Shown here in pieces: positions 3,221 through 63,049 of a DNA stretch of 64,000 bases. Location: the NCBI RefSeq assembly GCF_022605165.1, contig NC_063069.1, positions 2,542,001 through 2,606,000 on the forward strand. The letters run 5' to 3'. The notes beneath the pieces were generated by a model. That model was given only the letters and a program-made list of their open reading frames with translations. It had not been told where the DNA came from and made no database searches. The stretch's first letter is position 1. The number at the start of each line of letters is the position of its first letter. Both the position numbers and the translations under genes were made by a program. This stretch comes from Purpureocillium takamizusanense (Eukaryota > Ascomycota > Sordariomycetes > Hypocreales > Ophiocordycipitaceae).

Positions 3221-3291
3221 GGCAAGGCAGGGCAGGGCAGGGCAGCACGGCACAGCTCACAGCACGGCACAGCACAGGGCAGGGCAGGGCA
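3221..3291. repeat. GGCAG/GCACA degenerate minisatellite
   Basis: Overlapping GGCAG and GCACGGCACA units run for about 70 bp. The antisense ORFs it generates are cysteine/proline repeats and are not believable genes. Confidence 0.8.
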
Positions 3292-4617: not shown

Positions 4618-4634
4618 GGTGGTGGTGGTGGTGG
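4618..4634. repeat. GGT trinucleotide repeat
   Basis: About five to six GGT units in tandem in the gene-poor spacer, with no associated coding signal. Confidence 0.8.
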
Positions 4635-5080
4635 CAGTGGTGCCGCCTGCGCCGCCTCGTATCTGCGCAGCTGGTCAGCTCAGCCAGCCTGCCTGCCTGC
4701 GCACAAGCCTGAGGTGCCTGCCAGTGCACCGTCGCCGGCATGGTCTCTGTTGCTCTCGATACCAGAGCCTGCTCAGAAGCACATTTGCTTGCCGGTGCAT
4801 ATTGTACGTACTAGGTAGTACCTGTACGGTTCGATCCGATTACAAAGCGTCGTAAGGGCAGACGGATAGCTAACTACCTAGTACCTGTAGTACCCATGTG
4901 GAGAGAGAAAGAGAGAGAGCGAGACGAGGGGGGGAGGGAAGAGGGAGCTCGGTCCCGCTAGAATTGCCGCTGGTGGATGTGGGACCTACGCCCCAAATGC
5001 CCCAAGCTCCTCCCGATCGACAGGCCAATTCGGCGCCTCGAAAGGGACGGCCGCTGACGCACCACTAAGTAAGTTAGGTA

Positions 5081-5110
5081 TCATCATCCTCATCCTCATC
5101 CTCATCATCA
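5081..5110. repeat. CATCCT hexanucleotide repeat
   Basis: Tandem CATCCT units, slightly degenerate at both ends to CATCAT, in the gene-poor spacer. Confidence 0.85.
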
Positions 5111-7977
5111 CCACCGTTACAGTATCAGGGGCTTGCCAGTCTCATCACTTCTTTCGCACTCGCCGTCGTGTTGGCACCGTGCATGCAAATACATCTTCCT
5201 CGCAGCGGCGAACCCCGTCTCTCATTACAATGCGCAATGCGCCGCAGGTTCAGGGCGGGCAGCCGTCTGCAATTGATTCAATTGTCTAGACGAGTCGATC
5301 GGCTTTGCATCCGAGCACATGCAATCAATGCTTGCATGCATGTTTCTCGGCCTCGCTCCGCTTGAGGCACATGCACATCGGTGCGTAGGTACCTTCCACA
5401 CGGTCGCGCGCGACCGAACTCGACGACGGTGAAGGCGTAGACTGACTGTTAGTTGCCCCTTGGCGGTGCACTGCAAACTACTAAGTAAACGCTCCTTCGC
5501 GGCGGTGCATCGGACAAGCTTCCATCACACATACATGCCTTTCTCTCTCGCTCTCTGACTGCGCCTTTTACCCAGCGAGCAATTCCAGCTTCAGATTGCC
5601 ATCCACCTGCCGCTACTGCTAGTAGTACTACGTACTGCTTCTTGCAGATCCCTGTTGGTCTAGGTTGCATTGCCCAATGCTTTCCTTCCCTTGCCCACCC
5701 CACGTAAACAGGGGGGGCCATGTTGATCTCCCACCGCTCGCCAGGGGGCGGGGGTTGGCAGTCGCAATATTGACGTGGATGTGGCTTTCGCAACCCGGCA
5801 TGGGCATCTCATCTATTCTCTCCATGTTTGGCATTCCCATGTCGCAGGGCACGGCATGACACGGCACACTAAAACAAAACCAACAAACAACAGAGGGCAA
5901 GGAACCGAACCGTGTGGTTCACCTTCATGAATCGACGTGTTTACTCACACATTGACGAGACAGGGTAAAAATAGCCGCCGTCTTGTACGAACACAGGTCG
6001 TAGGTACTAAAGTATTGAAGTTGCAGAGTACGTACATACAATGCACGCATGGCGACCCCCCAATGAACCCCAACAAGGCACTCGACACCTCCCGCCAACG
6101 CCGCCAATGCCGTCCACCGTTTCAGACTCATTTTGGCGGCCCCAGCGCTCGCGCGCGCCTATCCCATGCCCATTGTGAGCCGGCCGCAGCAGGTCTAGGC
6201 GATGGGCCAAGATCGTACTACTAACGTAGGTACTTACCTAGGCGGGTGGCGCCTCGAGAGTCAAGGCCGGCCGCGCGCCAGGGGGAAAAGACGTCACGGC
6301 GCCTGTCACAATGTCTGCAGAGCCGCCCGTGAGTTGTGACGGCGTTGTGTGTGTTGCGGGCATGCATGGGCCTCTCTGCACCGCTGGTGCCAACTGCTAC
6401 GCACGTACGTATGTACTTCGTACACATACGTTCGTTCGTTCGTACTACGCATGTCGTAGTAAGGATTCGTGATTATATGTAGCCTCTTGTTTCAGACCCT
6501 GCGAGGGCAGGCCGTTGGCGAGGGCGGCCGAGCCTGGACCGCCCTCGTGTGTCTGCTGCGCCCTCTCAATTGTCCGTGTTTACTGCCTAGGTATGTATAT
6601 TACCTGCATTCCTGACAGCTGCTCACATGTAAAGTATATGTACTTTGTAATTCTTTGCGTGTGTGTGTGTCTGCACGCAACGTGCATTACGTTAGTACAG
6701 AAAAAAAAGCCCACAAGCCTGGCATTGGCAAAGCAAGCGATCTCCCAACGCCGCTCAGCTGCCTGATCTCGCGTCTGGCGTTGCACCGCCGACGCTGTCT
6801 GACCTTGGCGGCGAGGCACAGCACCGCCGAGATCACGATGACGACTCGCGACGTGCAGGCGGGGGGCGATCGTTTGCAGCGAATTTGACCAAAGAAGGCA
6901 CGCAGCATTTTGGCGCCCCGCGGTGCTTGTTCCCCGAGGGTAAGCGCCCGCCCTCCCTCGCTTGCACCATATGGGTCAAGACAGCACAAACGAAATGCTC
7001 GACAAAGGTTCAGATACCGACAAGCGTAGTAGGAGCAAGTATTACATTACGCTCCTGTACGTCCTAGCCCGCAGAGGGCAGTAGCAGACTATCAATCACC
7101 CTCTTCTGGCATCGCAACGTCCCACCGTCACCATCTCACACTTTTCGGAGGCTTTGTGATTCTCTGCCCATATTCACGGGTGGGCATCTCCGTGGTCCTG
7201 GCGAGAGATGCTCGGGTGAAAGAGTGAGGTGATCAAGGAACCAGCACAACTCATGAGGGCGTGGGCCGGTTGTCGACGGCGATCCACCATATCCAGGAGC
7301 AGCAACAGCCGCGCTTCCTGACAGCGTGGTCTGATATCTGGTCAGGGAAAGCTAAGACGTCGTCCCACGTCGAACGTTGAAAGTCGGGTCACTATTAGCA
7401 ATACGATGGGATGGGCCATCGCATGTTTGAGACATAATACTGCTAGGTCGGTTCCCATGTGCCTTTCCGAAACCGATGCTCATGCCGTCCACGGATGGCT
7501 GCAAAGCGGCCAGCTTCACGGCCACCTTCGCTGCGTAGAAGTGCACGCCCGCTCTTCGCCTGGGCACGCAGCTTGCACGTCGCCGCCGCCGCTCATGGCA
7601 GCCAAACTTCGCCCTCGGGATACACACGTAGTGTCGAATATCCAAGCTTCTGTCCATTGCACCCCGTCACCCGTCAAAAGGCTACGACATGGCTGTACGT
7701 CCACTTGATGCCATCGCCGCATGCCTGTGCAACAGCCTTGCGACGGAATGGGCGCCTCGTGAGCCAGCGGCCGACAACATTCCTCCCACCGAACTGCGTC
7801 TACTAGTAGCAGAGAGACTCCCACGAGCACCAGATAAACACAGACCGGTAACCCGGCAACACCAAAACGGCTTTTTCCCCGTCCCGACAAGATAGACCAC
7901 GCACCTCGTTTCACAACACGAAGAGGCAAGGGGTAATACTGGTCGTGGTGGTGCGTCGGCTATCCTCGCCCCCCCGC

Positions 7978-8997
7978 CTACTTGAACTTGACCCAGCTGG
8001 CAGCCTGGTCGAGGGCCCTCTGCTCAAGGCTTCCATCTCGCGTGCCTGCCCGGAGCGCAGTTCTCGCAGCCTCGAACTGCTGTTTACGCCCCGCGTCCAC
8101 CGCCCCGGTGGCGACCACGTTGCGAAGAAAGTACCAGACGGACTCGTTCCTCCAGTGGAACGACTCCGTGAGCTGCAGCGTCTCGCTAAAGACACCCGCG
8201 GCCTCTCCCGTCCATGCCCTGAGCAGGAACAGGAGGAACATCCACCCGGAGACGTCGTCGTGGTGGCTGAAGCACCAGCGCTTGGCGTCCGCCACCAGCG
8301 ACGGCCCGTCCAACAACGCACGCTGTGGCTCGTTTCGCGCCGTCGCGGAGAGCGCGACCAGCTGTCGGGCGTGGCACCAGGCGTAGTAGTTGCGGGGGTG
8401 CCGCTCCGCCGACACGAAGACGACGTCGCGTATGTCTGCTGCGAGGTCGCCCGCCGCGGCAAGGTCACCGAGCTGTGCCGTCAGCCATCGGCGATGGCTC
8501 CAGAGGACAGGAGACTTGGTGTGTCGGTGAAGGCGACTCGTCAGAAGGCTGTCGATGAAGTACTTTTCCTTGCCGAGAAGCTCCCTGACGTGTTCATGTT
8601 TCGAAGTGTTGTTGGATATGAGACGTTTGCGGGTATTCGCCGCCGTGAGGTGCTCGGCGTCCATGAGGAGAATGGTAGCAGTGGCCCGCAGGATCCGGTC
8701 CTCCGCGACCTCCTTCCCGTGAACAAGGTGCTCGTTCAGTATCCTTCTGGCGACGATAAATGCCTGCACAAGCCGCAGCTTGGGTATAGCAATGGCGTTG
8801 ACGTCTTGAAGCAACGTCGTGTCCGCATCTGGGATGTGGCTCTGGCCCAGCAGTTCTATCTCGAGCAGGGAGCCGTGCGCTTGGATCAGCGCCGAGGATA
8901 TCTCCTCGAAGACCCTCTCGTGATTGCCATTCTTGAGTGCCACCTTGACGCCCTTGTCGAGCGCCCGGGACATTTGAGAAAACTGAACGGTGGACAC
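7978..8997 (-). CDS. protein prenyltransferase alpha-subunit repeat protein (PTAR1-like)
   Basis: A 339-residue single-exon protein with PPTA-type helical repeats. Diagnostic Trp/Arg segments include SPVLWSHRRWL, RNYYAWCHARQL and DVSGWMFLLFLL, evenly spaced in the second half. In the family these repeats build the alpha subunit of farnesyl/geranylgeranyl transferases. Free-standing PTAR1-type proteins act with Rab geranylgeranylation factors. The protein departs from the classical farnesyltransferase alpha subunit, so a PTAR1-like role is more likely, but the substrate is not shown. MSTVQF is taken as the start, and the in-frame Met nine residues in (MSRALDKG) is an alternative. It is divergent from GET1 with only 241 bp between starts, so the two share a promoter region. 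Confidence 0.75.
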   Translation of the reverse strand: MSTVQFSQMSRALDKGVKVALKNGNHERVFEEISSALIQAHGSLLEIELLGQSHIPDADTTLLQDVNAIAIPKLRLVQAFIVARRILNEHLVHGKEVAEDRILRATATILLMDAEHLTAANTRKRLISNNTSKHEHVRELLGKEKYFIDSLLTSRLHRHTKSPVLWSHRRWLTAQLGDLAAAGDLAADIRDVVFVSAERHPRNYYAWCHARQLVALSATARNEPQRALLDGPSLVADAKRWCFSHHDDVSGWMFLLFLLRAWTGEAAGVFSETLQLTESFHWRNESVWYFLRNVVATGAVDAGRKQQFEAARTALRAGTRDGSLEQRALDQAASWVKFK

Positions 8998-9238
8998 ACA
9001 ATTCGCAGTGAAGTGCGTGTCTGGAGCTCAACCTGGCTCCCGGGTAACTTGAACGTTGGCGGAGCGGGAGGCAAGCGCTGAAGTTGGGTTATGTCATCAG
9101 CGCGCCCGCCCAGCCAACAGGACAGCTCGAGTCCGACGGCGGCGCAACCGGACCCCACGATGCCACTCAAGTGCCAGCTCAACCGCCATCCTCCCCGACC
9201 CGAGCTCTCCTGTCTCTGCTCCCCCAGACGGCGCCAAG

Positions 9239-42699: not shown

Positions 42700-43764
42700 G
42701 CGTGAAAACGGGTAAAGAAGCGTTGAGAGGAGGGGAGGGAGGTGCTCGTTTCGTTTCTCCCTCGAAGAGAACGTCCCCGATGTGGCTCGATTACTGTATC
42801 ACCAGAATCTTCCTTTGTTTGAAGGACTTGGCCATTCATGGTCATTATCACCACACTGTCTGCAGCGACCGAGCTCTCTAGCATGTTGTGTCATGGGCAA
42901 ACGGGCAAGTCCAGACCGCGAGCTGCCAAAAGTGTAACTTGCTCATCAAGCAAGCCACGACGTTTGTGGTCAGTGAGCACCAGAGCCTTCAGGAACATGG
43001 CCCAGGCCCTGTACAACGGGTAGATGTAGTTTCGTGGAGGCACGTGAGTGGTAATGATGAAAGTACCATGGTGTGAAAGGACCCAGAGGGGGCGTTGTTC
43101 TTATCCTCATGAGCGATGGGCTATCACCATTTTCACTTGGAACTCAGGATCTCGATGCCCTTCAGGTTCTTGCCATCTCTCAACATCGGGTTCGCTCGTC
43201 TTATGAGCCGTCACACCGCTCATTACACTATAGCCCGCCATATTCTCGTCATATAGCTTGTGTGTCACTCACCTCCCAGCGCGGCGCAGGATTTTCATCT
43301 AGTAGATATTCTTACTGGGAACAAAAGATGTCGTCGTCGTCACGCCAAATGAAAACTTCGCCGCACTGCGCCCTCGGGCAAGAGGACGCTACGTATCGCA
43401 AGGCACTTACTTGCCGAGGGCCGCACGGCGGTTGCATCCCGGCTTCGAGCAACAGAGCTAGCTACTACAGAAAAAAACGTCACCCTGCCGGGATGCCGTG
43501 TGATGCAGTACAACATAAAGAGGCTTACGTCGTAGTCACGTAAGTTAGTCTGCTGAAATTCTGAGACACGGACTAACATATTAGACAGCCCAAGGCACCC
43601 AACCAAGACACCGACCGCAGCCCCTGTCTACGCCGTGACCGTGGGATAAAGCAGAGAGCACACCCCCGTTTCTAGGTGTCGAAAGGAAAGGGGAAAAAAA
43701 AAAGAGTTGACGCACCCAGCACGTGTCAGGAGACTTTGCTCGCGCGCAAACCCCCCTCGCAGCC
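42700..43764. other. spacer at probable left boundary of the metabolite cluster
   Basis: About 1.1 kb without a recognisable gene. A 156-codon plus-strand frame at 43073-43543 has no motif and unremarkable composition, so I do not call it. An A-run at 43693-43703 lies close to the thioesterase-like gene start. Confidence 0.5.
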
Positions 43765-44945
43765 ATGTTCGGCGGCGACAAGAACCCGATCCAAGTGCAG
43801 GCGCAGCCGCCTGGCCTGGAGGCGAGCCCGCCTCCGCCATTAGTTCTGATCCACGACGGCGGCGGCACGACCTTTAGCTACTTCATGCTCGGCAAGCTGA
43901 ACCGCGCCGTCTGGGCCATCGAGAACCCCGAGTACTCCAGCGGCAAGGCATGGGCCGGCGGAGTGGACGAGATGGCGCACCGCTACATAGATGTCATCAT
44001 CGAAGCGGGCATCAGGGGCGCCATCATTCTCGGTGGTGAGCTGTATTCTTTTTCTTTGCTCCCTTCTCTCCGTGTCGTATGGAGGGAGGCGCTTGGTTTG
44101 TACTGACCTCGTCCGACTCCCTCGCAGGCTGGTCTTTTGCGGGTTACGTCTCCTTGACCATGGCTCACATCCTGGCTCGGGACCCACGCGGGGACCTCCT
44201 CCATGTCGCCGGCTTTCTCATGATCGACGTTCCGTACTTTACTCCACGGCCGCAGCTCACGGTTTCCACCTCGGAGCCTGAGATAGAGGGCATCCCGGAC
44301 CTGGTGCGCACGGCGTTTGAAAACGTCGACGACATGATGGAACGCTGGGAGAAGCCGCGCTGGGACGGGCCCGCGGCGGCGGTGGTTGGCAGGGGGGAAG
44401 GGAAGCTTCAGGTTGCCGGGCAAGTCCTCGCGATGCCGCCGCCTGAGGGCATCCTGCATAGGCCTTTGGGAGGCACCTCCTGGACGACATCTCACAGACA
44501 AAACGGTCAACCTCCGACTTTGGAAGTGACCAACCCTATCATCCCACCGCCCGGCGTGATGATTCGGTGCGCCCAGCCTCTACCAGTCACGAAGCAGTGT
44601 CCCTCGACGCCCGCTCGCCTCGACGTCCATCGAGACGACGTTTCACTCGGCTGGGACGGGAACTACACCGACTTCCTCCAGGCCGTCATCGACGTCGACG
44701 CCGACCACTACAATGTCTTTGACATGTGTGACGTAGAAAAGGTACAACATTCACTTCCCTGTGTTTAAGGGGGGTTTGACAGTGCTGACATTAGCACCAC
44801 ACAGATGGAGAACCTCACGGCGCAACTCATCACCGGCCTCGAGATTCTCGATGGCCTTGACGTCTTTAGTCTCTCAAGCGATGATGCAAATCACTCATCC
44901 GCGCCGTCGCATGCATCGCCTGGCTCTATGCCTGCACATCTATGA
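43765..44945 (+). CDS. stand-alone thioesterase-like alpha/beta hydrolase (PKS/NRPS type)
   Basis: Exons 43765-44035, 44128-44741 and 44805-44945 give 341 residues. LVLIHDGGGTTFSYF near residue 27 is the usual opening of PKS/NRPS thioesterase domains. GGWSFAGYVS, created exactly across the first intron (G|GC), is the nucleophile elbow. DADHYNVFD near residue 287 fits the late catalytic His. The middle is longer and more Pro-rich than in integrated thioesterase domains. In fungal clusters such free enzymes release or edit thioester-bound intermediates. The neighbouring NRPS has no release domain of its own, so action in trans is plausible but unproven. It is convergent with the dioxygenase gene. 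Confidence 0.8.
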
Positions 44946-45179: not shown

Positions 45180-46343
45180 CTAGTATAGTATCTTGGTCAT
45201 GCGGCGCTGAAACTCCAACGCGTCAATCTCGTCATACAGGGCCGGCTTGTCCTTTGTGACAAAGTGCGGCAGCGGCCCCACGGACATGCTCCTGTGCGCC
45301 TTGAAGAAGAAGATGCCCGAGTACCGCTCCGGGCACTCCCCGTCCTCGAGCCCCCTCAGCGCCGGCGGGACCGTCACCTGGTGGACGCCGGCCATGACGT
45401 CGCCGTTTGTCCAGCGCTGGAACGTGTCGCTGATGTTGACCACCATCTCCGTCGGCCCGTCGGCGCTCCCCGGGCACACGGGCGCAAACGTCCCCGGGTT
45501 CCTGCGGTCCTCGAGCTCGAGCCCGCCGATGGCGTCCTGGAAGAGGAGGGTGATGATGCCAAAGTCGGTGTGCGGCCAGGTCCGCTTCACCTTGCCCTCG
45601 GCGAGCTTCCTCAGGTCGGTGCGCGGGTAGTGGTTGAGGCGCAGCTCGCTCGACGCCGGCTGGCACCGCTCGACGATGACGCCCGGCGGGAGGCCGAGGC
45701 CGACCTCGATGGCCTCCATGAGGGTGATGCAGATGCCCTGGAACTGGCCGTAGCAAGCCTCCATCAGCGTGCGGAAGCCGGGCAGCTCGCTCTCCGTCGG
45801 CCACTTGTTGGGATACTGCGCGTCGCCCGGCGGTCCGGCGTCAAAGTGCTCCTATAAAGAAGAGAAAAAAACATCATCTTAGCCTACAATCACTGACTCT
45901 GCCTGTAAGAGAAGATGGGCCTCCTTCTCATACTCGCGCGTCGGTGAGCTCGTCCCATGATTCTTGCCCCTGGAGATTCTCCTTTCTGAGCTTGGACGTC
46001 TGCTCGGCGCCGACCCAGCTGAACCCGCGCTGAGGCTCGGGTCCCCTGGCGTTGGCGATCCTCATCTTGACGTCAGTCGGCAGCGCGAAGAAGTCGACTG
46101 CCTACATCCGATGGTGTCAAGTCAGCTCTACATTGAATGGGATAGCCGCCCCAGTTGAAGGAAAGAGTCGTCCTAGCTTACAGCCTTCATGTACTGCCTG
46201 ACGACATCCTCGGGGACGCCGTGGTTGACCAGCTTCACGAAGCCGTGGTCCTTGAAGCTTTGGACCAGGTCTTCCGCGAGTCTCTTTCGCTCGGCGTCGC
46301 TGCCGTGATGAAAGGAAGACAGGTCCAGCGTAGGGAGATGCAT
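45180..46343 (-). CDS. 2-oxoglutarate/Fe(II)-dependent dioxygenase (isopenicillin-N-synthase fold)
   Basis: Minus-strand exons 46343-46182, 46101-45934 and 45851-45180 give 333 residues. The DIOX_N region is at the start (MHLPTLDLSSF, DHGFVKLVNHGVP, DFFALP). The iron triad is His and Asp in WPHTDFGIITLLFQD plus the distal His of GVHQVTVP. RYSGIFFFKAH gives the Arg and Ser that hold 2-oxoglutarate. A TGA met on reading through exon 2 is intronic: the donor is GTATGA, and skipping it joins DAR to EHFDAGPPGD in frame. Such enzymes hydroxylate, desaturate or cyclise natural products. Its position 1.7 kb from the NRPS 3' end suggests a tailoring step. MTEISHLL at 46406 is an alternative start. Confidence 0.87.
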
Positions 46344-48043: not shown

Positions 48044-51000
48044 TCACCGGGAGGTACCGTCGGTTCTCGCAGCCAACTGGCAGAGCCTAGGATGCCGGAC
48101 GATATCCACGACTGTCAGCTCGAGACCGGCCTGCCGCGCCTCCACCACCATCCTCATCATGCCGATGGAATCCCCCCCTAGAACAGCAAAGCTATCGTCT
48201 AACCCTATAGTGACGGGATCAATCTTAAGAACCTTGGCCCAAATCTGCTGCATCTGCCGCTCTACATTGGTCACGGGCGGCCTCTTCACTTCCAGCCTGC
48301 CCGACTGCGGCTCGCTGAGCTCCCGCATCGTGAACGCCATGCCGATTTCCCGTAGCTGCTTCCGGTTCAGCTTTCCAGTCGGCGTCACCGGCAGCTGTTT
48401 CATAGAGATGAACGCCGACGGCACCATGTAGGCAGGCAATGCTTCCGCTATTCTCGTTCTCGTTCCCGCCGGAGTCGGTAGTATCCTCGCGGCGGCGGTG
48501 TGATGCTCCGGCTCGGCGGCAGTTGTGGCTGCAGCATCAATCTCAAGAAAAGCCGCGAGCACCGGCCCAGACTGCGCGCCCCGTGGCGTGATGAGCTCTG
48601 CAACAACTCGCGTTGCATCAGGCATGCATTTCTGCACGCAGTGCTCGATTTCGCCTAGCTCAACCCTCTGGCCCCGGATCTTGACCTGCGTGTCCTTGCG
48701 ACCCAGGTATGCCAGCATCCCTCGCTCGCTGTAGCGGACCAGGTCTCCTGTCTTGTAGAGTCGGCCATGCCTTCCTGGATGAGTGGCTGTGCCTCGAAGG
48801 AGCCACTTCGGGTCTTCGATGAACACGGCTGCCGTCTTTGCTGGATCATTCAGATAGCCGCACCCGACGAGGGGACCTTCGAGAAGAAGTTCGCCAACAC
48901 ATCCGGGTGGTAACAGGATATCATGGTTGTCTGGATCCACAACCCACGTCAGCAGCCCAAGCCCTGCCCCTATGTGGGTTATATCTTGGGGGCTCGTCTG
49001 TTCCCAACTGATCGTACTCGGGCCGCATTCCGCGGGCCCGTACGCGTTGACAACTCTGACCTTGTCCCACCAGCGTACAACGTCGTCAATGAACACGGCT
49101 TCTCCGCCGAAAATCAGGGTCTGAAGCTGAGGTACCGAGCTTGGAACGATGAGGCGAGCCACCGAGGTCGTAACGTTGGCAAGAGTGACTCGCATGTCTG
49201 CCATGACCTGATTGATATTGTCCTTGCGGTCTTTCTCCGAGGGAATGCATAAGCACCCGCCTGACGCAAACGCGGCAAAGGCATTGTGGATGGCCACGTC
49301 AAAGGCGTAGGACGCAAAGTCAAACACCCGAGAATCCTGGTTGAACCCGAGAGCCCGTAGCTGGTGCTTGAGACTGGAACAAAAGTTTCTGTGAGACAGC
49401 AGAGCCCCCTTGGGCGTACCTGTGCTGCCCGATGTGAAGACGGCAAACATTGTTGCCGACGGAGTGACGTCGACGGGCAAGGGCCTGGCGGAAGAGTCAA
49501 AGAGACGCATCGAGTCTTGCCCAAGCTCAATGACCGTTCCCGACAACCGCGAGCTTAGACGTAGGTTGGCGGCCGAAGACACAACCACTTTCGACCGCAC
49601 TTGCTGGACAATAGCCTGGATACGCTGCTCTGGTAGACAGGTGTCTATCGAGACAAACGCCCCGCCCGCCTTGAGCACGCCAAGCATAGCGGCGGGAGCC
49701 CACATGGACTTCTCGAACAAGAGCGGCACGATCATATCTGGCCCAACGCCATATTGCACAAGACGGCCAGCCAAGCGTGAGGAAAGCTGGTCTAGCTCAC
49801 GATAGGTAAGTTGGCCGTCCCAGGAATGCACGGCTGGTGCGTCAGGCCTTCTCATTGCTTGTTCTCGGAACACGTCGTGAACACAAACATCCCACGGGGC
49901 TGGTAGTGTGCTGTTCCAGTTCCATATTTGCTCCAGATCATGCGGTGTCATGACTTGGATATCGGCCAATTTATCGACGGCTTCGGCGTCCTCCAGCTGT
50001 CTTGTCACAAACTCGAGGCGTTCAAGGAGCTTGCGTACCGCCCATGGTTGGATCACTCTTGAGTCAAAGGTGGCTTTGACTGTAAGGCTCCCGTCGCCAA
50101 GGTACACCTCTATCAGAAAGGCGTACGTGTTGAACCATTGCTGGTGTCGGATCGGCTGCCACGTCCCGTATTCTTCCTGGGAAGTGCCAGTCTCAGGCGG
50201 GTGAATAATCAACAGCGTCTGGAAACTGCAGGCTTGCCGGCCGTCGGGAGACATCTCAGCAATCCCCTGTAGTCCTATTTGCTCATGCGGGGTCATGTCG
50301 AGTGACTGCTGCTGCACCGCGTCGACATAGTCCCACATTGTCTGGTTCTCATCTGGCTTTACACGTAGCGGGACTGTTGCAAATGTCGGCGCTGCCATGG
50401 TCTCCACGCCGGTCACGGGCGCGCTCCGCCCAGACACGGTAATTCCAAACACAACGTCGGGGCAGTTGGTCATCCGGCTGATGAGCAAGGCCCATGCAGC
50501 ACGGACTAGAGTCGAAGTCGTGACGTTCCTGTCTGTCGAGCGCACCTGAGGCCGAGGCAGTTGATACTCCACAGTCTGATCTGCCATCGGCTGCTTGATA
50601 GTCGGCGGTAGACTCGGAAAAGGTGTCAGGCCCTCACAGCCCGATAGGGTGTCTTGCCAATAGCGCCGCGAGTCTTCGTTGTCCTGTTCTTTCACGTATT
50701 TGATGAAGGTTTGAAAGGGAGGCGGAGTCTCGATGGCGTCGCCACGATACGCCCGGCTCACCTCGTCGATAAGTAGAGGCATCGACCACCCGTCGTAAAG
50801 CGTGTGATGGATCGACCAGACAAACCACCTGGGCGCCACGGCTTCCGAGGTTTCTTTGACAAGCCCGTAGCGTACCAAGGGCCGTCCCAGTCCCATGGGA
50901 TCTTCCCTGTCCGCGCTCAGGTACTCTTCCAGGCCCGTTGCCTTGACCCAACGGACCGGCTCGTCACAGACGACTTGCAAGAGACCGAGTTGTCTGTGCT

Positions 51001-53348
51001 GGACAAGTCTGGTGCGCAAAATGGGCATGGTGCGGGCTGCCCGCTCCCAAGCCGCGCAGAAACGCTCAAGGTCAATATTCTTTGACAACTCCATGACGCC
51101 CTGCATGCTGTATTCTCCAGGGCGCTGCAGAGTTAATGCCATCAGGCCTTGTTGAAGGGGCGTGCAGGGGTATGCGTCGGAGATTTTGGCTGGCGTTGCG
51201 CTGCACGCCTTGGTCAGGTCTTCGAGAAGTGAAGGAATATCGACCCCATCGCCAATAAGGGCAAAAGGCACAAAGTCCTCCGAGGAACTGGGGACCGAAT
51301 GAAAACTGTGTTTCGAGTGCTCGTGTAGGACTGGGTAGCGGAAGCAGTCCGTCACGGTCAGGTTGATGCCGAGTTTGCGTGCCTCGCCGACTACCTTCAT
51401 TGCCGCGATCGAGTCGCCTCCGAGATGGAAGAAATTATCGTCCAACCCAATTTTCGCTGTTGGGATATCGAGAACCTGGGACCAAATCTTTTGGATGCAC
51501 CGTAGGATCTCCGAAGAAGGCTGTCGCTTTGGCCCCCGGTTGGACGACAGCATTTCGGCAAGCATCTCAACGGAGAGGGACGAGCCAATTTCTCGCAGCC
51601 GTTTCCGGTCCAGTTTCCCGGTCATTGTCTGTGGGAGCTTCTCGATGGAGAAGATTATCGAAGGAACCATGTAACTCGGCAGATGCGCTGAGATCTTCGC
51701 TTGTATATCGGCGGCAAAGGGATATATGACGAGGCCGACGTGGTCCTTATCCGACTTGTTTTGACCGACAGCATGGCCATTTCTGCCGGGGCCATTGCTT
51801 TCGTTTTGGATGAATGCCGCCAATAATGGTTTGGCGTTCTTGCCTTGCGGCACAACGACCTCGGCGACGGTACGAGCCGTACTCTTGACGTATTTGTGAA
51901 GCCAGTGCTCGACTTCTCCAAGCTCGACCCGTTGCCCGCGGATCTTGACTTGCGTATCCTTGCGCCCGACAAAGACCAAATGGCCGTCTTCGTTGTACCG
52001 AACCAAGTCGCCTGACTTATAGAGCCGGCCGTGTCGTCCCGGTCGGCCAGGTGCTCCCTGGAGTAACCACACTGGATCCTCGATGAAGGCAGCTCTGGTC
52101 TTGTCCGCACCATTCAAGTAGCCCTGACTAACGACGGGCCCTTCCAGTAACAGCTCTCCAACGCATCCCGGGGCCACAAGTTCTTCGTGGTTCTGGGGGT
52201 TCACGATCCAAGAGACCGCGCCAACGGCATCTCCTATGTGAGTGGCATACTCCAGGCTCGACGGATTGTAGTTGATGTTGGTGTTGAACGGGCACTCAGT
52301 GTTGCCGTATGTGTGAGCGATGATCGCTTTTTTGCCCAGCCATATTTCCATGTCCCGGGCTCCCGTCGCTTCGCCGGAGAACAGGATCAAGCGCAGAGTA
52401 GGTGTTTCTTCAGGGCTCAGGAGGCGGGCGATGGAGGGGGTGATTTCGATGACGTTGGCACCAAAGGACGTTATGCTCTCCGCTATTCGGTGTTTCCTGT
52501 CGTGATCGCTCGGTACGCAAAGGCAACCACCTGCTAAGAGGGCATGAAAAACATTGCAAATAGAAGCGGAGAAGCTATACGATGCCAAGTCGAAGATTCT
52601 TGATTCCGTCGTGAGCCGCAGACGGTTCATTTGGTAACAAACAGCGGAGGCAACGTTCTCATGAGTTACCATTACCCCCTTCGGCGTCCCGGTGCTGCCA
52701 GATGTGAACGAGATGTAGGCGAGAGACGAGGACGAAGGGCAAGGCAGGCGCCGCTCTGCTTGATGGCCCAAGGCGCCGTCGAAGTAATCAAGATTGACAA
52801 CGACGACGTTTTGCACCAATCGTGAGCTCAGAGGTCGATTGGGAAGAGACGTCAGAATCAGAGTCGCTTCGAGCTGGCGGACAATATCTTGGAGCCGACT
52901 CTCAGGGAGAGATGGGTCCAGCAGAACGAACGCCCCTCCCACCTTGAGGACTGCAAGGATCGCAACTGTCGTCCATAGAGATTTCTCAAAGCATAGCGGC
53001 ACGAGTGTCCCTGGTCCGACACCGACCTCAATCAGATGACTCGCCAGAGCTGCGGCCTTTCGGTCAAGCTCGCCGTACGACAGCCGGCCGTCCCAGGCGC
53101 ATACCGCCGGCGCAGATGGCTGCGATCGAGCCCACTGTTCGAATATCGCGTGGGCACAGCGCGCGACTGCAGGCGGAACTGGGCTGTTTCGCTTCCATAT
53201 TCCCTCAAGCTCTTGCGGGGTGACGGTCTGAACGTCTTCAAGTGCTGCGCTTGGCTCGACCGGGCCAACAAGTCAGCGGGATTAGAACAGTTGGGGTCGT
53301 AGGAAAGACGTGGTGGCTTTGGGTCTAACCGTCATTTGAACCGAGCAT
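48044..53348 (-). CDS. non-ribosomal peptide synthetase, domain order A-T-C-A-T
   Basis: Minus-strand exons 53348-53330 (19 bp) and 53244-48044 give 1,739 residues. The large frame has no usable ATG before its first A domain. The 19-bp exon supplies MLGSND and joins in phase to ALEDVQTVTPQELEGIW. A1 has TSGSTGTPKG (about 187), a variant A5 (TYGNTE), SGDLVRY and TGKLDRKRL. T1 is FFHLGGDSI (Ser618). C has an intact HHTLYDG (His819/His820, Asp824). A2 has TSGSTGTPKG (about 1278), AYGPAE and TGKLNRKQL. T2 is VLGGDSIGM (Ser1699), 41 residues from the end. There is no starter C, terminal C, TE or R domain. By eye alignment the pocket codes are SACILSTFN for A1 (the usual Asp235 is Ser) and DVHVIGAPS for A2. 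So A1 may take a substrate without an alpha-amino group. Confidence 0.92.
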
Positions 53349-55615: not shown

Positions 55616-58600
55616 ATGACCGTCCTCTCGGCAGAAGAGTACCGGACCACGATTGGGGACTTCAATCTCACCGACGATGCCTCGACACTGGGGCACTGCG
55701 TGCATCAGCTCGTCGAGAGCGCCGCTGGCGGCCATCCCGACAAAACTGCCCTGGTTTGCGGCGACAGGGCAGTGACATATGAAGAGCTCAACAGCCTCGC
55801 AGACCAACTTGCCGACATCCTCATCGAAGAGGGCATCGGACGGGGAGACGTCGTGGGCGTGGGCCTGAGTCGTTCGGTCCACCTCGTTGCGGCGCTGTTA
55901 GCAGTAATGAAGACCGGCGCTGCATACGTCCCCGTCGACCCGACATATCCCGCCGAGCGCATCAACTACATGCTCAACGACGCTGCCGCCAAGCTCGCCG
56001 TCGTTAGCACCCGCACATGTGCTGCTCTGGACGCATGGAAAGGCACTTGCCTAAACATTGACGAGATAACGGCTCGTATGCCTTCGACGCCTCGGAGCGG
56101 GAGCGGGAGCCTCGGGGTCGATGTGCAGCCCGAAGATCTGGCATACGTCCTGTATACGTCTGGTTCCACCGGCCGGCCTAAAGGCGTCGATATGAGCCAT
56201 GGGGCCGTCTGCAATATGCTTCTGTCTCTGCAACAGAAGCCCGGATGCAGTGAAGCCGACCGGCTCCTGGCAGTCAGCACAATTTCCTTTGACATGGCAG
56301 TCCCAGAACTGTTTCTCCCGTTGTCATGCGGTGCGACGGTAGTCATGGCTCAGGAACACCACGTCAGAGACGCGGGTGCACTACTACAGCTCATGCGGCG
56401 GCATGGAGTCACCATGATGCAGGGCACTCCAACAATATGGCAGATGCTAATTGACGCAGACTGGAGCGGAGAACCTAGACTCGTCAAAATGCTGTCCGCT
56501 GGCGAGCCGCTCTCCCGCCAGCTGGCCGACGATCTGCTCAACTGCGGCGATCAGATGTGGAACCTATACGGTCCGACTGAGGCGGCAGTTCATGCAACGG
56601 CGTGGAACGTCGTCCGAGGCGAGGAGATGATTGTCGGCAAACCCATAGCCAACTATCGACTTTACGTGCTTGGTGAAGACCTATCACCGGTGCCGTTGGG
56701 GAGTCCTGGAGAGATATACATAGGCGGGCCGGGCCTTGCTCGGGGCTACCGCAACAAGCAAGAGCTCACGAAGTCTCAATTTATCAGCAACCCATTCCAC
56801 CAGGGCCTAATGTATCGCACCGGTGATCTAGGCTGCTTCATGTCCCCGGGAAAGCTGCGTGTTCTTGGCCGAGCCGACGACCAGGTCAAGATCCGAGGCC
56901 ACCGGATCGAACCGGGCGAGGTCGAGTCCGTCATCACAGACCACGACTGCGTGTCTCGGGCGGTCGTCATCAGTCGACATGGCCGGTTGGTCGCCTACTG
57001 CGTGCGCATGACCGCAGATGCACCGGAGTCCAGACCCGAAATCGCGCTGGACCGGCTGCTGCGTCCGTGGGTTTCGGCACGCCTACCAGCCTATATGGTG
57101 CCGGCGTTCTTTGTCGAGCTTGATGCCTTCCCGGCGACGCTGAATAGAAAGATTGACCGCAAGGCACTTCCAGATCCTGTGCCAGCTTCTTCAGTGGCTG
57201 CGAAGGGGATGGTTGACTCGACGCCCGATGCCGACTTGGAAAACCAGATAATTGCCATATGGTCTGGCATCCTCGGCCATGACCAAATCAGCGTCCACGA
57301 CAACTTCTTTGAGATTGGAGGCGATTCTGGGCGCGTGATCCGCGTACAGACGAAATTAAAACAGGTTCTCGGCCGGTCCGTATCGCCAGCCAAACTCTTC
57401 GAACACTACACTGTCAGGACCTTGGCATCGTATATAGGGGGAGGCATGCAAAAGGAGCAAAATAAGGGGAACTTGCATCAGCCCGGCGGGCAGACCAACC
57501 ATCACGAAGCCAGAGACGAAGATATTGCCGTAATATCAATGGCATGCCGGCTTCCTGGCGGCGCCATCACTCCAGAAGACTTTTGGACCCTGCTCGAAAA
57601 AGAAGTAGACGCGATTATAGATGTACCCGAGGGTCGATGGGATGATGATGATGCCGGCCAAAACGGCTCCTACTGCCGCCGAGGAGGATTCATCCCATCC
57701 ATTGACATGTTTGACGCGCCGTTTTTCGGCATCTCGCCGCGGGAGGCCGCATCTCTCGACCCGACACATGCTCTGATGCTGGAGATGTCCTGGGAGGTGT
57801 TGGAGCGAGCCGGCTACACAACGGAGCGGCTACGTGGGAGCCAGACCGGTGTCTTCGTCGGCGTGAGTAGCATCGCGGCCTACCAACACGGCTACGACTG
57901 TGCTGGCCTGGAGGGCTACTCCATCACAGGCACCGCCGGTGGCACGCTGTCCGGTCGTGTGTCATACGTGCTAGGACTGGAGGGGCCGGCCATGACCATC
58001 GACACGGCATGCTCGTCTTCCCTGGTGGCGACGCACGTTGCCTGCAATGCGCTCCGGCAAGGCGAGTGCGACATGGCCGTGTCTGGCGGCGTGTCCCTCA
58101 TGCTCACGCCGGGTTTGCACGCTGAGTTCAGTCGACTGGGCGGCATGTCGGCCGACGGGAGCTGCCGAGCGTTCGCATCGGACACGCAGGGCACGGGCTG
58201 GGGCGAAGGCGCCGCCGCCATCGTCCTGAAGCGGCTATCCGATGCCCAACGTGATGGCGATGTAATCCATGCCGTGCTGCGTGGCACGGCCGTCAACCAC
58301 GGCGGACGTAGCAGCGCCAGCCTCACAACTCCCAGCGGACCGGCGCAGCAACGGCTCATCCGTACGGCGTTGGCGGCGGCGCGGCTGCAGCCAGGTGACA
58401 TCGACTACGTGGAGGCGCACGGGACGGGCACCAGGCTCGGAGACCCGATCGAGGCCGGCGCCCTCGGTGAGGTATTTGGCGAGGATCGAGGAATCCAAGA
58501 ACATGGCCGGAGCGGCACGCTGTGGGTGGGTTCGGCAAAGTCCAACATCGGACACACGCAGGCCGCGGCCGGCCTGGTCGGGATGGTCAAGGTCATGCTG

Positions 58601-61600
58601 GCTATGAGGCACAACTCGCTGCCACCGACGCTCCACGTGAACGGCGTGCCCACGCGCGAGGTGGACTGGGAGGCCGTAGGCATGGCTCCCGTGCAGAAGC
58701 AACAACCATGGCCGCCTAACAAGAGCGGTCGGCGGCGTCGGGCGGGCGTGAGCGCGTTTGGCATCGGCGGGACCAACGCACATGCCATTATCGAGGAGCC
58801 GCCGCCGCCGCCGCCGCCGCCGTCTCTCCGGGGCGCACAGTCCGCTCCGCTTCCCCGCGTGCTGCCGCTGTTGCTGTCGGGACGAAGCGAGGCGGCGTTG
58901 CGTGACCAGGCCGACAAGTTGCGACGACACCTCATGAGCAGCAAAGGCGGCGACGAGGACGAACATCGGGCCCTGGGCAACGTGGCCTATTCGTTGGCCA
59001 CGACACGAAACCACTTCAAACATCGGCTGGTGCTGAGGGCCAAGGACAAGGCAGAGTTGCTCTGCAAGCTCGCAAACGCGTCTGGAGGCGGCATAGACTA
59101 TAACAACGCGACATCCCCATCCAGCCTGAGGAGTGAGAGGAAGAAGCCCCGCGTGGCGATGCTCTTCACGGGCCAGGGCAGTCAGTGGGCCGGCATGGGC
59201 AAGGGACTTGCCGGCCAGTATCCCGTCTTCCGCGCGTCGCTGGAGGCCATCGCGGACAAGTTCAAGACACATCTCGACGCGCCTCTGCTCCAAGTCATGT
59301 GGGCAGATCCAAGCAGTGAGGCTTCCGAGCTCCTGGAGCGCACCGAATACGCACAGCCGGCCCTATTCGCGCTGGAGGTGGCCCTGTGGCGGCTGTGGGA
59401 GAGTTGGGGCGTGCGGCCAGACATCGTGCTCGGGCACAGCGTCGGCGAGCTGGCCGCCGCCCACGTAGCCGGTATCATGGGAATCGACGACGCCTGCCGT
59501 CTGGTAGCAGAGCGTGGGCGCTTGATGCAGCCTCTGTCCGGTCACAGCGGCGGTGGTGGCATGGTGTCGCTCGAGGCCAACGCGTCCGAGGTGACCGACG
59601 CGATTGCGACGTTGGGCTTGCATAGCAAGATCGATATTGCGAGCCATAACACGCCCACCCAGTCAGTCGCCTCAGGGGATGTCGATGCTCTCGCCAGTCT
59701 CGTAGCCTATTTTGCGGATAAGGGCCGCAAGTCCACCAAGCTCGGCGTCTCTCACGCCTTCCACTCCCACCACATGGATAGCGCGCTGGATTGCTTGGCA
59801 AGAGCCGCCGCAACGGTGCGTTTTCAACCTGCGCAAACAACCATCGTCAGCAGCGTCACAGGCGCGGTCGCGCACATCGGCCAACTTGGAGAAGCCAGCT
59901 ACTGGGCTCATCAGGCACGCGCTCCAGTCCGCTTCAGCGACGGGATCCGAACCCTGGTCGACCAGGGCGTCGACGTGTTCCTGGAACTCGGCCCGCGGGC
60001 GGTGCTGTGCAGTATGGGCGCCGCCTGTGTGGAGGATGCCAATGTGGCCAACTCAATTGCGTGGTTGTGCTCGTTGGCGCCGAAGAAAGAGGACGCAGCC
60101 GACTTCATTCAGGGTAGCCTCGCCCAGTTGCACGTGCGGCACGTGCCTGTCGACTGGCCTGGCTACTTCCGCCCCTTTGATTGCCGACGTGTTGAGCTGC
60201 CGACGTATTCCTTCCAGCGGTCTTCATACAGCAACGGCACCGCCAGCATCAAAAGGACGGCGAGTGCCCCGAAAAAATGCTCCGGCAGCGACGTCGGCGA
60301 CGCCGGCAGCCCGGCTATAGATGGGCCGCAGCGCTTCCAGTTCGACATCAACTGGCATCAGATAAAGACTGGAGACGAAATCGTCAGCCCTCTCAGCGGT
60401 TCTTGGGGCTTGCTCTGCCCGAATGGTGAGGTGGCATGGGCCGAGGAGGTGTCGTTGGCTCTGCTGTCATCCCCCTCCTCATCAGCATCGCCAACATCAT
60501 CGCCATCACCATCATCATTATCGCCAGTGTTGCCGCGGCTGGTCCACATCTCTCATCTCAAAGACGCCCAACATCTGGACGGCGTGATCTGCTTGTGGGA
60601 TTCACATACCGAGCACATACAACAAGATGTACGAACCTTGACCGAACTGGCGCTCGCCCAGCTTCAGGACGCAGCACGAACCGCCTTCGCCCCGCCGATC
60701 GTATGGATCACACGGCAGGCGGTTGGCACGGGCGTCGACGACGACGGCGCCGTCCAGGGGCTTGCGGCGGCGCCCCTCTGGGGCCTGATGCGCACTGCCC
60801 GGAGCGAGCATCCGAATCTGCGCCTGCGTCTCATCGACCTGAGCGAGAGGCAGGCTAATATCAACGGCCTCGCCAGCGCCTTGGCCCTATCAGACGAGCC
60901 GGAGTGCGCCTTGCGGAAGGGTGGGTTGGTGTTTGTTCCCCGGATGGAGCGCCGTGCCCCGTCGTTGTCGGGAGTAAGACGTCACCACGGGCCGCCGACG
61001 ACAACGACGGGGACGCGACTCCCGTGCCGTGAGGGCGCCGTCTTGATCACGGGAGGCACGGGAGGCATCGGCCAGCGGGTGGCCAGGTGGCTGGTTGGCA
61101 CGCACGGCATCCGCGATCTGGTGCTTGTGTCTCGCCGCGGTGCTGCTGCCCCTGGCGCAACGTCGCTTGCCAACGATCTGGCCCGGCTCGGCGCCAGAGT
61201 CTCCCTGGTCGCCGGCGACGTGGCCGACCATGATGGCGTCAAGGCCATCATGTCCCACTTCAACCAGTCCCGTCCCCTGCGAGGGGTGATCCACGCTGCT
61301 GGCGCGCTGGACGACAGCGTTCTCGCGGCTCTGACGCCGCAGCGCTGCGACGCCACCTTTGCACCCAAAGCGTTTGGGGCACTGCATCTGCATCGCCTGA
61401 CTCGCGGCATGGACCTAGACTTCTTCGTGCTGTTTTCGTCCGTCTCCGGCATCTTGGGCACCGCGGGCCAGGGCAACTATGCCGCCGCAAACACCTTCCT
61501 CGACGCGCTCGCGTATTCGCGCCGTGCCCAGAACCTGGCGGCCACCGCTATCGCATGGGGCCTGTGGGACGGTGACGGAATGGCCGCGCGCATAAGCCCA

Positions 61601-63049
61601 TCATCCCGTGTTCGTTTTGCCCAGTCGGGTCTCGATGCTCTTTCCCCTGAAGAGGGCCTAGAGTTGCTGGGGCTGGCAGTGTCGGCGCGCGAAAGCCACG
61701 CGCTGACCGTCGCCGCCGCGTTCTCCGTCGAACGCCTTCAGGCGTACTACCAGGACGGCGCCCAGGAATCGCCTTCCCTGCTCCGATCGCTCATAGGGTC
61801 CGGCCGAAACGGTGGTGATGAGGACGTAAAGCGCGCCGCTCGACGTCAAGGCCGAGGAGAAAGCCGGCAGTGCGACGGGTCGGCCACTCGCACCACGCTG
61901 CACGAGGCGGCGACCGACGAGGAGCGCGCCGCCCTGATGCTGGCTGCGGTCCGGTCCGCAGTGGCCAAGAACCTGGGCTTCTTGTCTCCCGAAGATGTGG
62001 ACATGGACCTGCCCCTGCAGCAGATGGGGCTGGATTCATTGACGGCCGTCTTGACGCGCAACGAGTTGGCTGCCCTGACGGGGCTCGCGCTGCCGGCAAA
62101 CACCACATTGGGCTACCAGAGCGTCAGGGCACTCGCCGAGCTCCTCCTCTCCCTGATCCCACGCGGAGCCCGTGCAAGCCCAACGTCCAGCGCGACGGAG
62201 ACGACAGGCGCGTCAACCCCTCCGCCCACTCCCGCTCCCACATGTAGCGACAACAGCCAAGATGTCCCGAGTGATTCTTCTCCATCGACAACTGCCCCCA
62301 ACAGCCGCCTTCTCTGTCCTGCGCTCGGCCTTGTGCCGCCGCATTCCCCTCCTCAGCTCTTTGCCTCGAGCTGGAGCTACTTCGAAACCCTTGCCTGGTG
62401 CTCGCGCCTCCTGCAAGAATCCTCGCCCACGACTGGCCTGTTGCCCGGCCACGGCCAAGCCATCGGCTTCGTCTTGCCTGGCTTCAACCCTTCCAGCCCG
62501 GAACGAGACCAGTTCATCGGGGGCACGCTGTCCCACCGAAGCGAGAACGGAAAACATGGCAACAACAAGGCATGTTCCAGCACCATGAACAAGAACACAC
62601 CGCCCCCGCTCCGCCACATGCTCTGCCTCTTCCGCCCCTCTGACGCCGCCCACCTAGCGGACGCCTCTCGGCCCATCCAACGCGTCGTGACACTGTTCGC
62701 CCTCGGCGACGGCACATCCGGCTTCCCGGGCATGGTGCACGGCGGCCTCATCGCCACGCTCCTCGATGAGAGCCTCGGCGCCGTCAACGAGCTCAACGCC
62801 GCGCTCGGCAAGCGCCAGCAGGGCGGCGGCACCAGCACCAACATCAACGTCACCGCATCCCTCAGCATCGAGTACCTCGCTCCGCTGACCACGATGGAGG
62901 AGGTGGTGTGCGTGACGGCGTGGCTGGCGGGCGTGCGAGGGCAGAAGACGATTGTCAAAGCCGAGGTGTCCGATTCTCGAGGGGGAATCCTCGCCGCGGC
63001 GGAGAGCACGTGGGCGACAGTCGCGGTGCCGTCAGCAACGCTGGCCTAG
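55616..63049 (+). CDS. NRPS-PKS hybrid A-T-KS-AT-KR-ACP with fused hot-dog thioesterase
   Basis: 2,477 residues in one uninterrupted exon. The ATG of MTVLSAEEYRTTIG is chosen; the frame opens earlier only with GTG. In order: A (YTSGSTGRPKG about 180, YGPTEAAVH, YRTGDLG, GRADDQVKIRGHRIEPGE), T (GGDS, Ser571), KS (DTACSSS, Cys799; EAHGTGT; NIGHTQ), AT (GHSVGE, Ser1275; HAFHSHH, malonyl-type), KR (TGGTGGIG about 1812, LDD motif, GNYAAAN Tyr1955), ACP (GLDSLT, Ser2141) and a C-terminal 4HBT domain (GMVHGGLIATLLDES about 2373). DH, ER and MT are absent. Expected chemistry: one amino acid, one malonate extension, ketoreduction, thioester release. The A pocket keeps Asp235 (by-eye code DMPQLALVH). 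Through ACP the order equals swainsonine synthetase SwnK, which ends in a reductase instead. KS, KR and ACP resemble bacterial modular PKS. Confidence 0.93.
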   Translation: MTVLSAEEYRTTIGDFNLTDDASTLGHCVHQLVESAAGGHPDKTALVCGDRAVTYEELNSLADQLADILIEEGIGRGDVVGVGLSRSVHLVAALLAVMKTGAAYVPVDPTYPAERINYMLNDAAAKLAVVSTRTCAALDAWKGTCLNIDEITARMPSTPRSGSGSLGVDVQPEDLAYVLYTSGSTGRPKGVDMSHGAVCNMLLSLQQKPGCSEADRLLAVSTISFDMAVPELFLPLSCGATVVMAQEHHVRDAGALLQLMRRHGVTMMQGTPTIWQMLIDADWSGEPRLVKMLSAGEPLSRQLADDLLNCGDQMWNLYGPTEAAVHATAWNVVRGEEMIVGKPIANYRLYVLGEDLSPVPLGSPGEIYIGGPGLARGYRNKQELTKSQFISNPFHQGLMYRTGDLGCFMSPGKLRVLGRADDQVKIRGHRIEPGEVESVITDHDCVSRAVVISRHGRLVAYCVRMTADAPESRPEIALDRLLRPWVSARLPAYMVPAFFVELDAFPATLNRKIDRKALPDPVPASSVAAKGMVDSTPDADLENQIIAIWSGILGHDQISVHDNFFEIGGDSGRVIRVQTKLKQVLGRSVSPAKLFEHYTVRTLASYIGGGMQKEQNKGNLHQPGGQTNHHEARDEDIAVISMACRLPGGAITPEDFWTLLEKEVDAIIDVPEGRWDDDDAGQNGSYCRRGGFIPSIDMFDAPFFGISPREAASLDPTHALMLEMSWEVLERAGYTTERLRGSQTGVFVGVSSIAAYQHGYDCAGLEGYSITGTAGGTLSGRVSYVLGLEGPAMTIDTACSSSLVATHVACNALRQGECDMAVSGGVSLMLTPGLHAEFSRLGGMSADGSCRAFASDTQGTGWGEGAAAIVLKRLSDAQRDGDVIHAVLRGTAVNHGGRSSASLTTPSGPAQQRLIRTALAAARLQPGDIDYVEAHGTGTRLGDPIEAGALGEVFGEDRGIQEHGRSGTLWVGSAKSNIGHTQAAAGLVGMVKVMLAMRHNSLPPTLHVNGVPTREVDWEAVGMAPVQKQQPWPPNKSGRRRRAGVSAFGIGGTNAHAIIEEPPPPPPPPSLRGAQSAPLPRVLPLLLSGRSEAALRDQADKLRRHLMSSKGGDEDEHRALGNVAYSLATTRNHFKHRLVLRAKDKAELLCKLANASGGGIDYNNATSPSSLRSERKKPRVAMLFTGQGSQWAGMGKGLAGQYPVFRASLEAIADKFKTHLDAPLLQVMWADPSSEASELLERTEYAQPALFALEVALWRLWESWGVRPDIVLGHSVGELAAAHVAGIMGIDDACRLVAERGRLMQPLSGHSGGGGMVSLEANASEVTDAIATLGLHSKIDIASHNTPTQSVASGDVDALASLVAYFADKGRKSTKLGVSHAFHSHHMDSALDCLARAAATVRFQPAQTTIVSSVTGAVAHIGQLGEASYWAHQARAPVRFSDGIRTLVDQGVDVFLELGPRAVLCSMGAACVEDANVANSIAWLCSLAPKKEDAADFIQGSLAQLHVRHVPVDWPGYFRPFDCRRVELPTYSFQRSSYSNGTASIKRTASAPKKCSGSDVGDAGSPAIDGPQRFQFDINWHQIKTGDEIVSPLSGSWGLLCPNGEVAWAEEVSLALLSSPSSSASPTSSPSPSSLSPVLPRLVHISHLKDAQHLDGVICLWDSHTEHIQQDVRTLTELALAQLQDAARTAFAPPIVWITRQAVGTGVDDDGAVQGLAAAPLWGLMRTARSEHPNLRLRLIDLSERQANINGLASALALSDEPECALRKGGLVFVPRMERRAPSLSGVRRHHGPPTTTTGTRLPCREGAVLITGGTGGIGQRVARWLVGTHGIRDLVLVSRRGAAAPGATSLANDLARLGARVSLVAGDVADHDGVKAIMSHFNQSRPLRGVIHAAGALDDSVLAALTPQRCDATFAPKAFGALHLHRLTRGMDLDFFVLFSSVSGILGTAGQGNYAAANTFLDALAYSRRAQNLAATAIAWGLWDGDGMAARISPSSRVRFAQSGLDALSPEEGLELLGLAVSARESHALTVAAAFSVERLQAYYQDGAQESPSLLRSLIGSGRNGGDEDVKRAARRQGRGESRQCDGSATRTTLHEAATDEERAALMLAAVRSAVAKNLGFLSPEDVDMDLPLQQMGLDSLTAVLTRNELAALTGLALPANTTLGYQSVRALAELLLSLIPRGARASPTSSATETTGASTPPPTPAPTCSDNSQDVPSDSSPSTTAPNSRLLCPALGLVPPHSPPQLFASSWSYFETLAWCSRLLQESSPTTGLLPGHGQAIGFVLPGFNPSSPERDQFIGGTLSHRSENGKHGNNKACSSTMNKNTPPPLRHMLCLFRPSDAAHLADASRPIQRVVTLFALGDGTSGFPGMVHGGLIATLLDESLGAVNELNAALGKRQQGGGTSTNINVTASLSIEYLAPLTTMEEVVCVTAWLAGVRGQKTIVKAEVSDSRGGILAAAESTWATVAVPSATLA
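60467..60529 (+). repeat. Ser/Pro low-complexity insertion in the hybrid synthetase
   Basis: TCA/CCA-type codons encode a run of Ser and Pro inside the structural sub-domain before the KR catalytic domain. It is in frame and probably a flexible surface loop. Confidence 0.7.

Follow-up and report, generated by a model that had tools for sequence, protein, structure and literature searches.

A SwnK-type hybrid synthetase of Purpureocillium takamizusanense with a predicted hot-dog thioesterase domain at its C-terminal end

The end domain of a one-module hybrid between a nonribosomal peptide synthetase (NRPS) and a polyketide synthase (PKS) determines the product of the enzyme, and a gene on contig NC_063069.1 of Purpureocillium takamizusanense raises the question of how its product would be released. 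The gene occupies positions 55616..63049 of the forward strand of the window (the whole stretch of 64,000 nucleotides analysed, contig positions 2,542,001 to 2,606,000). The protein that it encodes, P0001, consists of adenylation (A), thiolation (T), ketosynthase (KS), acyltransferase (AT), ketoreductase (KR) and acyl carrier protein (ACP) domains, followed by a domain of the 4HBT family. It can be held with reasonable confidence that P0001 is an NRPS-PKS of the SwnK lineage in which a predicted hot-dog 4HBT domain takes the place of the thioester reductase (R) domain, and that release is likely to be by hydrolysis.

Domain order and terminal domain of the hybrid

The reading frame is open from 55514 to a TAG at 63047-63049, with a first ATG at 55616 that gives a protein of 2477 aa; in an alignment by eye, this start matches that of a relative from Hirsutella minnesotensis (P0002). 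The initial annotation, made from the sequence alone, had described a complete order A-T-KS-AT-KR-ACP-4HBT with all catalytic motifs present. This description stands: the Pfam domains counted all score above the Pfam cut-offs, and the catalytic residues can be located in the protein (Table 1), including Asp226 and Lys512 of the A domain. The roles of the A, T, KS, AT, KR and ACP residues are those usual for these types of domain. At the level of motifs, the A domain is of the amino-acid-activating type, with the Asp and Lys of the positions termed Asp235 and Lys517, and its ten-residue code, DMPTLALVHK, which was compared with those of relatives only, is identical in P0002 and P0004.

The same annotation had proposed a malonyl-type AT, an LDD-type KR and no dehydratase (DH) or enoylreductase domain, all of which agrees with the Pfam matches, motifs and spacing. 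The AT motif is HAFH, which by the usual rule is of the malonyl type. No DH match is found by Pfam in P0001, nor any HxxxGxxxxP motif between AT and KR, and these two domains are separated by 291 aa; with P0210 (556 aa) set aside, the short relatives have spacings of 193-301 aa, as against 852-860 aa in twelve long DH-bearing proteins. A DH between AT and KR is rejected on all three grounds. Pfam gives no match to a condensation (C) domain in P0001 either.

The family PF03061 is matched in frame after the ACP, as had been claimed, with a score of 26.9 bits against a cut-off of 20.6, and no stop or change of frame between the two domains is found in the window sequence. A few splice-like motifs are present in this interval, and the gene models of P0002 and of P0021, from Trichoderma aggressivum, have the same ACP-4HBT join. 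An intron separating the two domains is held unlikely because both of these models retain the fusion. Neither Pfam nor comparison with R domains detects an R (PF07993) in P0001, where a linker and then the 4HBT tail are found instead.

The predicted structure of the tail has a hot-dog fold, and its first Foldseek matches are THEM4 and THEM5 (PDB 4gah, 4ae8, 4ae7), where the initial annotation had spoken of a UPF0644/4HBT-like thioesterase. These are human standalone proteins with no fusion, at 15-26% identity to the tail in the Foldseek rows, but THEM4 has the same HGG, Asp and Thr letters as P0001. These letters are conserved in all 23 tails compared, and we take them to be the catalytic set of hydrolases such as THEM4. 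Pfam, fold and conservation together reject a chance resemblance, and the model of the tail is that of a hot-dog thioesterase domain resembling THEM4.

The SwnK lineage and the change of release domain

The relatives of P0001 were drawn from a homology search with its A-T-KS region (best 120 of 7231, with bacterial multi-module proteins mixed in); a search with the KS-to-ACP region (best 120 of 7030) returned mostly multi-module bacterial PKSs and was uninformative on the nearest relatives. Among the matches listed, the nearest tail-less proteins with full coverage are of the SwnK type A-T-KS-AT-KR-ACP-R, with 57-62% identity over A-T-KS, while P0002 reaches 71%. Those labelled SwnK-like or swnK (P0168, P0235) have 58-60%, the value for P0168, 'SwnK-like protein 1' of Slafractonia, being 60%; no experimentally proven SwnK was identified in this list. 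P0001 falls inside the SwnK-type lineage both in a KS-AT tree of 67 chosen rows and in an A+KS+AT tree of 34 chosen rows, two bacterial outgroup rows of which have no A region. Judged by these comparisons, it is a relative of SwnK and not a separate invention. SwnK, the swainsonine NRPS-PKS, has the same A-T-KS-AT-KR-ACP order with one extension, but ends in R (PMC5473758, PMC8403587), where P0001 has a 4HBT domain and no R; the criterion of PMC5473758 for a SwnK ortholog is an identity of more than 70% to SwnK orthologs. The A code of P0001 differs from those of P0168 and P0235.

The tail is found in 23 proteins including P0001, 20 of the others having been found with the last 263 residues of P0001 as query and two (P0183, P0196) having been added by the A-T-KS search. 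T and ACP domains of the relatives were taken from Pfam lists, and carrier domains stood outside the comparison of domain order. The check for the same order in other fungi that the initial annotation had called for found it in P0002 (HIM_07865) and P0021 (Triagg1_3930), which are annotated as hypothetical or uncharacterized, so that with P0001 it is present in three of the 23. A fourth protein, P0004 (from an ENA source), has a KR and, placed after the ACP and ahead of 4HBT, an R whose motifs are intact. R and 4HBT are combined without a KR in three (P0005, P0012, P0013), neither KR nor R is present in eight, and a methyltransferase (MT) lies inside the A domain, again without KR or R, in eight (P0008, P0009, P0011, P0015, P0017, P0018, P0183, P0196). 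P0010, which has lost most of the A domain, is probably a cut gene model. The exact order of P0001 is hence a minority form within a wider tail-bearing group.

P0021 has the full order of P0001, but its A code is DMLAVTLIYK and it stands apart in the trees; P0004 shares the A code, the LDD-type KR and the tail, and is a sister in the A+KS+AT tree, but differs by its intact R. The LDD motif occurs in all four tail-bearing KRs, as against four of 68 in short R-bearing proteins without a tail. Three of these four tail-bearers form one clade, and the bias may reflect either kinship or a different stereochemistry.

In the A+KS+AT tree, P0001 and P0002, with 4HBT only, group together (SH-aLRT, Shimodaira-Hasegawa-like approximate likelihood ratio test, 100), joined by P0004, with R and 4HBT (97), and then by P0241, with R only (97). 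This nesting suggests that the release domain was exchanged stepwise, presumably through a stage with both R and 4HBT. Of the 85 R-bearing proteins, 83 have intact Rossmann and YxxxK motifs in R; the exceptions are P0190, a partial match, and the tail-bearing P0005, from Purpureocillium lavendulum. An ortholog of P0005 (81% identity by tblastn) is encoded at 1862-9073 of locus L011 as the second tail-bearing hybrid of the present genome, with the order A-T-KS-AT-ACP-R-4HBT; its R likewise has neither motif, and an in-frame stop lies ahead of its tail. This pattern fits a stepwise change in which R became free to decay once the 4HBT domain was present. A frame for a class-III aminotransferase adjoins the L011 hybrid.

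A standalone homolog of the tail is encoded elsewhere in the genome (L012, 1289-2344, reverse strand), but this copy finds no place among the fused tails in a tree whose rows own_L001 (a wrong reading frame), own_L003 and own_L004 are very long branches. A more speculative history, offered tentatively and with appreciable doubt, is that a THEM4-like standalone protein was fused behind R (the state of P0004), after which R decayed (P0005, L011) or was lost (P0001, P0002). Alkaloid synthases that release aldehydes would thereby have become one-protein makers of free statine-type acids, with gamma-amino-beta-keto acids as the products of their KR-less sisters. The acid might here feed a divergent neighbouring NRPS, in the first A domain of which Ser replaces the Asp expected to bind the alpha-amino group.

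Twelve long proteins (3783-4044 aa; P0178, P0199, P0209, P0212 and eight others) have the order A-MT-T-KS-AT-...-KR-R, and the named ones come from Nocardia or Actinoallomurus. The four cited by number, the only ones of the twelve included in the KS-AT tree, nest within the fungal lineage, which suggests a transfer between bacteria and fungi.

Predicted release, product and precedents

By the proposed mechanism, the A domain would activate one alpha-amino or imino acid and load it onto the T domain, the AT would place malonyl on the ACP, and the KS would form one carbon-carbon bond by decarboxylative condensation. Reduction of the beta-ketone by the KR would give a gamma-amino-beta-hydroxyacyl-ACP, the thioester of which the 4HBT domain would cleave with water. 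The initial annotation had expected one pass to give a beta-hydroxy-gamma-amino (statine-type) acid released by hydrolysis. At the domain level this is supported as far as the beta-hydroxy-gamma-amino thioester, for the release of which P0001 has no reductase. Since 4HBT is the only release domain in P0001, a gamma-amino-beta-hydroxy (statine-type) acid, or the gamma-lactam if the amine cyclises, is the most likely outcome. Such an acid is the unit by which pepstatins bind aspartic proteases. The same core with a hydrolase at its end would thus give free gamma-amino-beta-hydroxy acids, as against the SwnK intermediate proposed to close to an indolizidine, and the occurrence of R-only, R+4HBT and 4HBT-only states among the relatives makes this change of terminal domain directly testable.

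The tail might instead form an amide, giving 4-hydroxy-pyrrolidin-2-ones, indolizidinone-type lactams where the substrate is a cyclic imino acid, and tetramic acids in the KR-less sisters. A gamma-amino group is well placed for closure of a five-membered ring. The conserved HGG, Asp and Thr, in the roles that we presume for them, are nevertheless the set of hydrolases such as THEM4, and we know of no hot-dog release domain that forms lactams. Lactam formation by the tail is therefore considered quite unlikely, despite the proposal that the SwnK product closes to an iminium ion and ring after release (PMC5473758).

Several observations weigh against hydrolytic release of a statine-type acid by the tail, or against the history proposed for it. 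THEM4 is an acyl-CoA thioesterase, and the action of the tail on ACP thioesters is assumed. The KR is absent from 19 of the 23 tail-bearing proteins, so that the statine reading applies to four only, and to our knowledge no tail-bearing member has a reported activity or product. An approximately unbiased (AU) test, made on a tree with 16 of the 23 tail-bearers, rejects one clade for them (p 0.0226), and the tail and KS-AT trees disagree over P0007, P0019 and P0020/P0021. Simple vertical descent of the tail from a single origin is rejected by this test and by the partial agreement of the trees. The AU result implies that the tail was gained, lost or exchanged more than once, and the direction given here to the swap is a presumed one. 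Finally, the R motifs are retained beside the 4HBT domain in P0004, P0012 and P0013, so that a tail is compatible with a second release domain and might have a different function there, and a standalone alpha/beta-hydrolase thioesterase about 11 kb from the hybrid could release the product instead.

The last two points would suit an editing role, in which the tail clears misloaded carriers in the manner of a type II thioesterase and the product leaves through an enzyme acting in trans, such as that alpha/beta-hydrolase (PF00975, 43711-44765). Hot-dog thioesterases can edit, the tail may edit or compete with R in the three proteins just named, and a standalone tail homolog exists in the genome. 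By contrast, neither Pfam nor comparison with R reveals a second release domain in P0001, P0002 or P0021, the R of P0005 and of its L011 ortholog is degenerate while the tail motifs are retained, and the constant C-terminal position of the tail, directly after ACP or R, suits release. An editing role is consequently regarded as unlikely, and hydrolytic release by the tail is preferred.

The statement in the initial annotation that known fungal hybrids of this kind end in a KS or in R is too narrow. The naringenin synthase FnsA of Pestalotiopsis fici (A-T-KS-AT-DH-KR-ACP-TE; PMC9606254) is also an A-led fungal NRPS-PKS with a C-terminal domain named thioesterase (TE). It differs in taking aryl acids, in adding three or four malonyl units and in having a DH, which P0001 does not. 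Furthermore, the order A-T-KS-AT-KR-ACP-TE is given for a gene of a dermatophyte in a table of 2011 (PMC3091305). Swainsonine (SWN) clusters with a SwnK ending in a thioester reductase were later reported from dermatophytes (PMC5473758), and the gene of the 2011 table may be a SwnK ortholog with its end labelled TE. The TAS1 type (C-A-T-KS, with a KS end) differs from P0001, which has no C domain match and has an AT, a KR and an ACP.

In myxobacteria, the coralinone synthetase CorA ends in A-T-KS-AT-ACP-TE, with a beta-keto acid as its proposed product (PMC10979478), and is a precedent for the KR-less tail-bearing sisters; it is however bacterial and dipeptidyl, and has no KR. Statine-type modules with a KR (didemnin and others) are considered to convert an amino acid and malonyl to a 3-hydroxy-4-amino unit by a route that PMC12081711 calls not experimentally verified. 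They differ in belonging to bacterial multi-module lines, and the pepstatin reduction is carried out by a separate F420H2 enzyme (PMC12081711).

P0001 represents a 4HBT-ending variant of the SwnK kind, which was not found described in the open-access literature searched. That literature yielded no paper on a hot-dog release domain in a fungal NRPS-PKS, although the 502 fungal hybrids mentioned in PMC9606254 may include members, and its statine papers yielded no fungal enzyme. The word 'thioesterase' is absent from the passages of PMC6854747 consulted, and 4HBT is not among the TE models mentioned in the part of PMC8582187 seen, so that standard domain typing could miss such a tail. The claim of an undescribed architecture holds as far as no paper on it was found in this literature, but the same order recurs in P0002 and P0021, the tail is present in 22 other proteins, and SwnK is a relative.

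Neighbouring genes

Together with the hybrid, the NRPS, oxygenase and thioesterase frames listed in Table 1 form a plausible small cluster of four genes, and it is our guess that the NRPS uses the product of the hybrid. In this NRPS, the position of Asp235 is occupied by Ser in the first A domain and by Asp in the second. The first 200 residues of the frame include no methionine, and no N-terminal C domain was found upstream of it; the 5' end is therefore incomplete or lies in unrecognised exons. The lack of an early methionine and of an upstream C domain, and the in-frame stop of the sister gene in L011, might also be taken as signs of a non-functional, decaying cluster, lost so recently that the frame of the hybrid is still open. 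Against this are the 7.4-kb frame of the hybrid with its intact motifs, and the Hirsutella relative of the same order at 71% identity, such that decay of the locus appears very improbable indeed.

Table 1. Features of the hybrid gene and its possible cluster partners, in window coordinates
Feature	Position	Strand	Basis
Hybrid open reading frame, 2477 aa, A-T-KS-AT-KR-ACP-4HBT, uninterrupted	55616..63049	+	Pfam and translation
A domain, aa 34-512	55715..57151	+	Pfam AMP-binding 34-378 and C-terminal part 435-512
First carrier (T), Ser571	57245..57436	+	Pfam PP-binding 544-607 (best of two stretches)
KS, Cys799/His935/His980	57518..58639	+	Pfam 635-877 and 885-1008
AT, Ser1275, HAFH at 1380	59162..60145	+	Pfam 1183-1510
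SpnB_Rossmann, Rossmann-like structural portion of KR	60686..60931	+	Pfam
KR, GGTGGIG, LDD at 1898, Ser1942/Tyr1955	61034..61570	+	Pfam 1807-1985
Second carrier (ACP), Ser2141; ends approximate	61898..62155	+	Second Pfam PP-binding stretch
Linker of about 60 aa, where SwnK-type relatives have R; ends approximate	62156..62335	+	
N-terminal portion of tail, conserved, with invariant W and C	62336..62620	+	Comparison of tails
4HBT hot-dog domain; His2375 (62738), Asp2384 (62765), Thr2413 (62852)	62729..62986	+	PF03061, aa 2372-2457
NRPS frame A-T-C-A-T, divergent from hybrid, no release domain; possible cluster partner	48047..53272	-	
2-oxoglutarate (2OG)-Fe(II) oxygenase frame; possible cluster partner	45183..45851	-	
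Alpha/beta-hydrolase thioesterase PF00975, one predicted intron; possible cluster partner	43711..44765	+	

Among the selected open reading frames (ORFs) of the flanks, in which alone swnN, swnR, swnH1 and swnH2 were looked for, one 2OG oxygenase and no reductase match were found. The selected ORFs of the right flank comprise a MUG190-like gene and others without clear family, and those of the left flank beyond the possible cluster are of housekeeping type (seryl-tRNA synthetase, actin-like, GEN1-like and MgsA-like).
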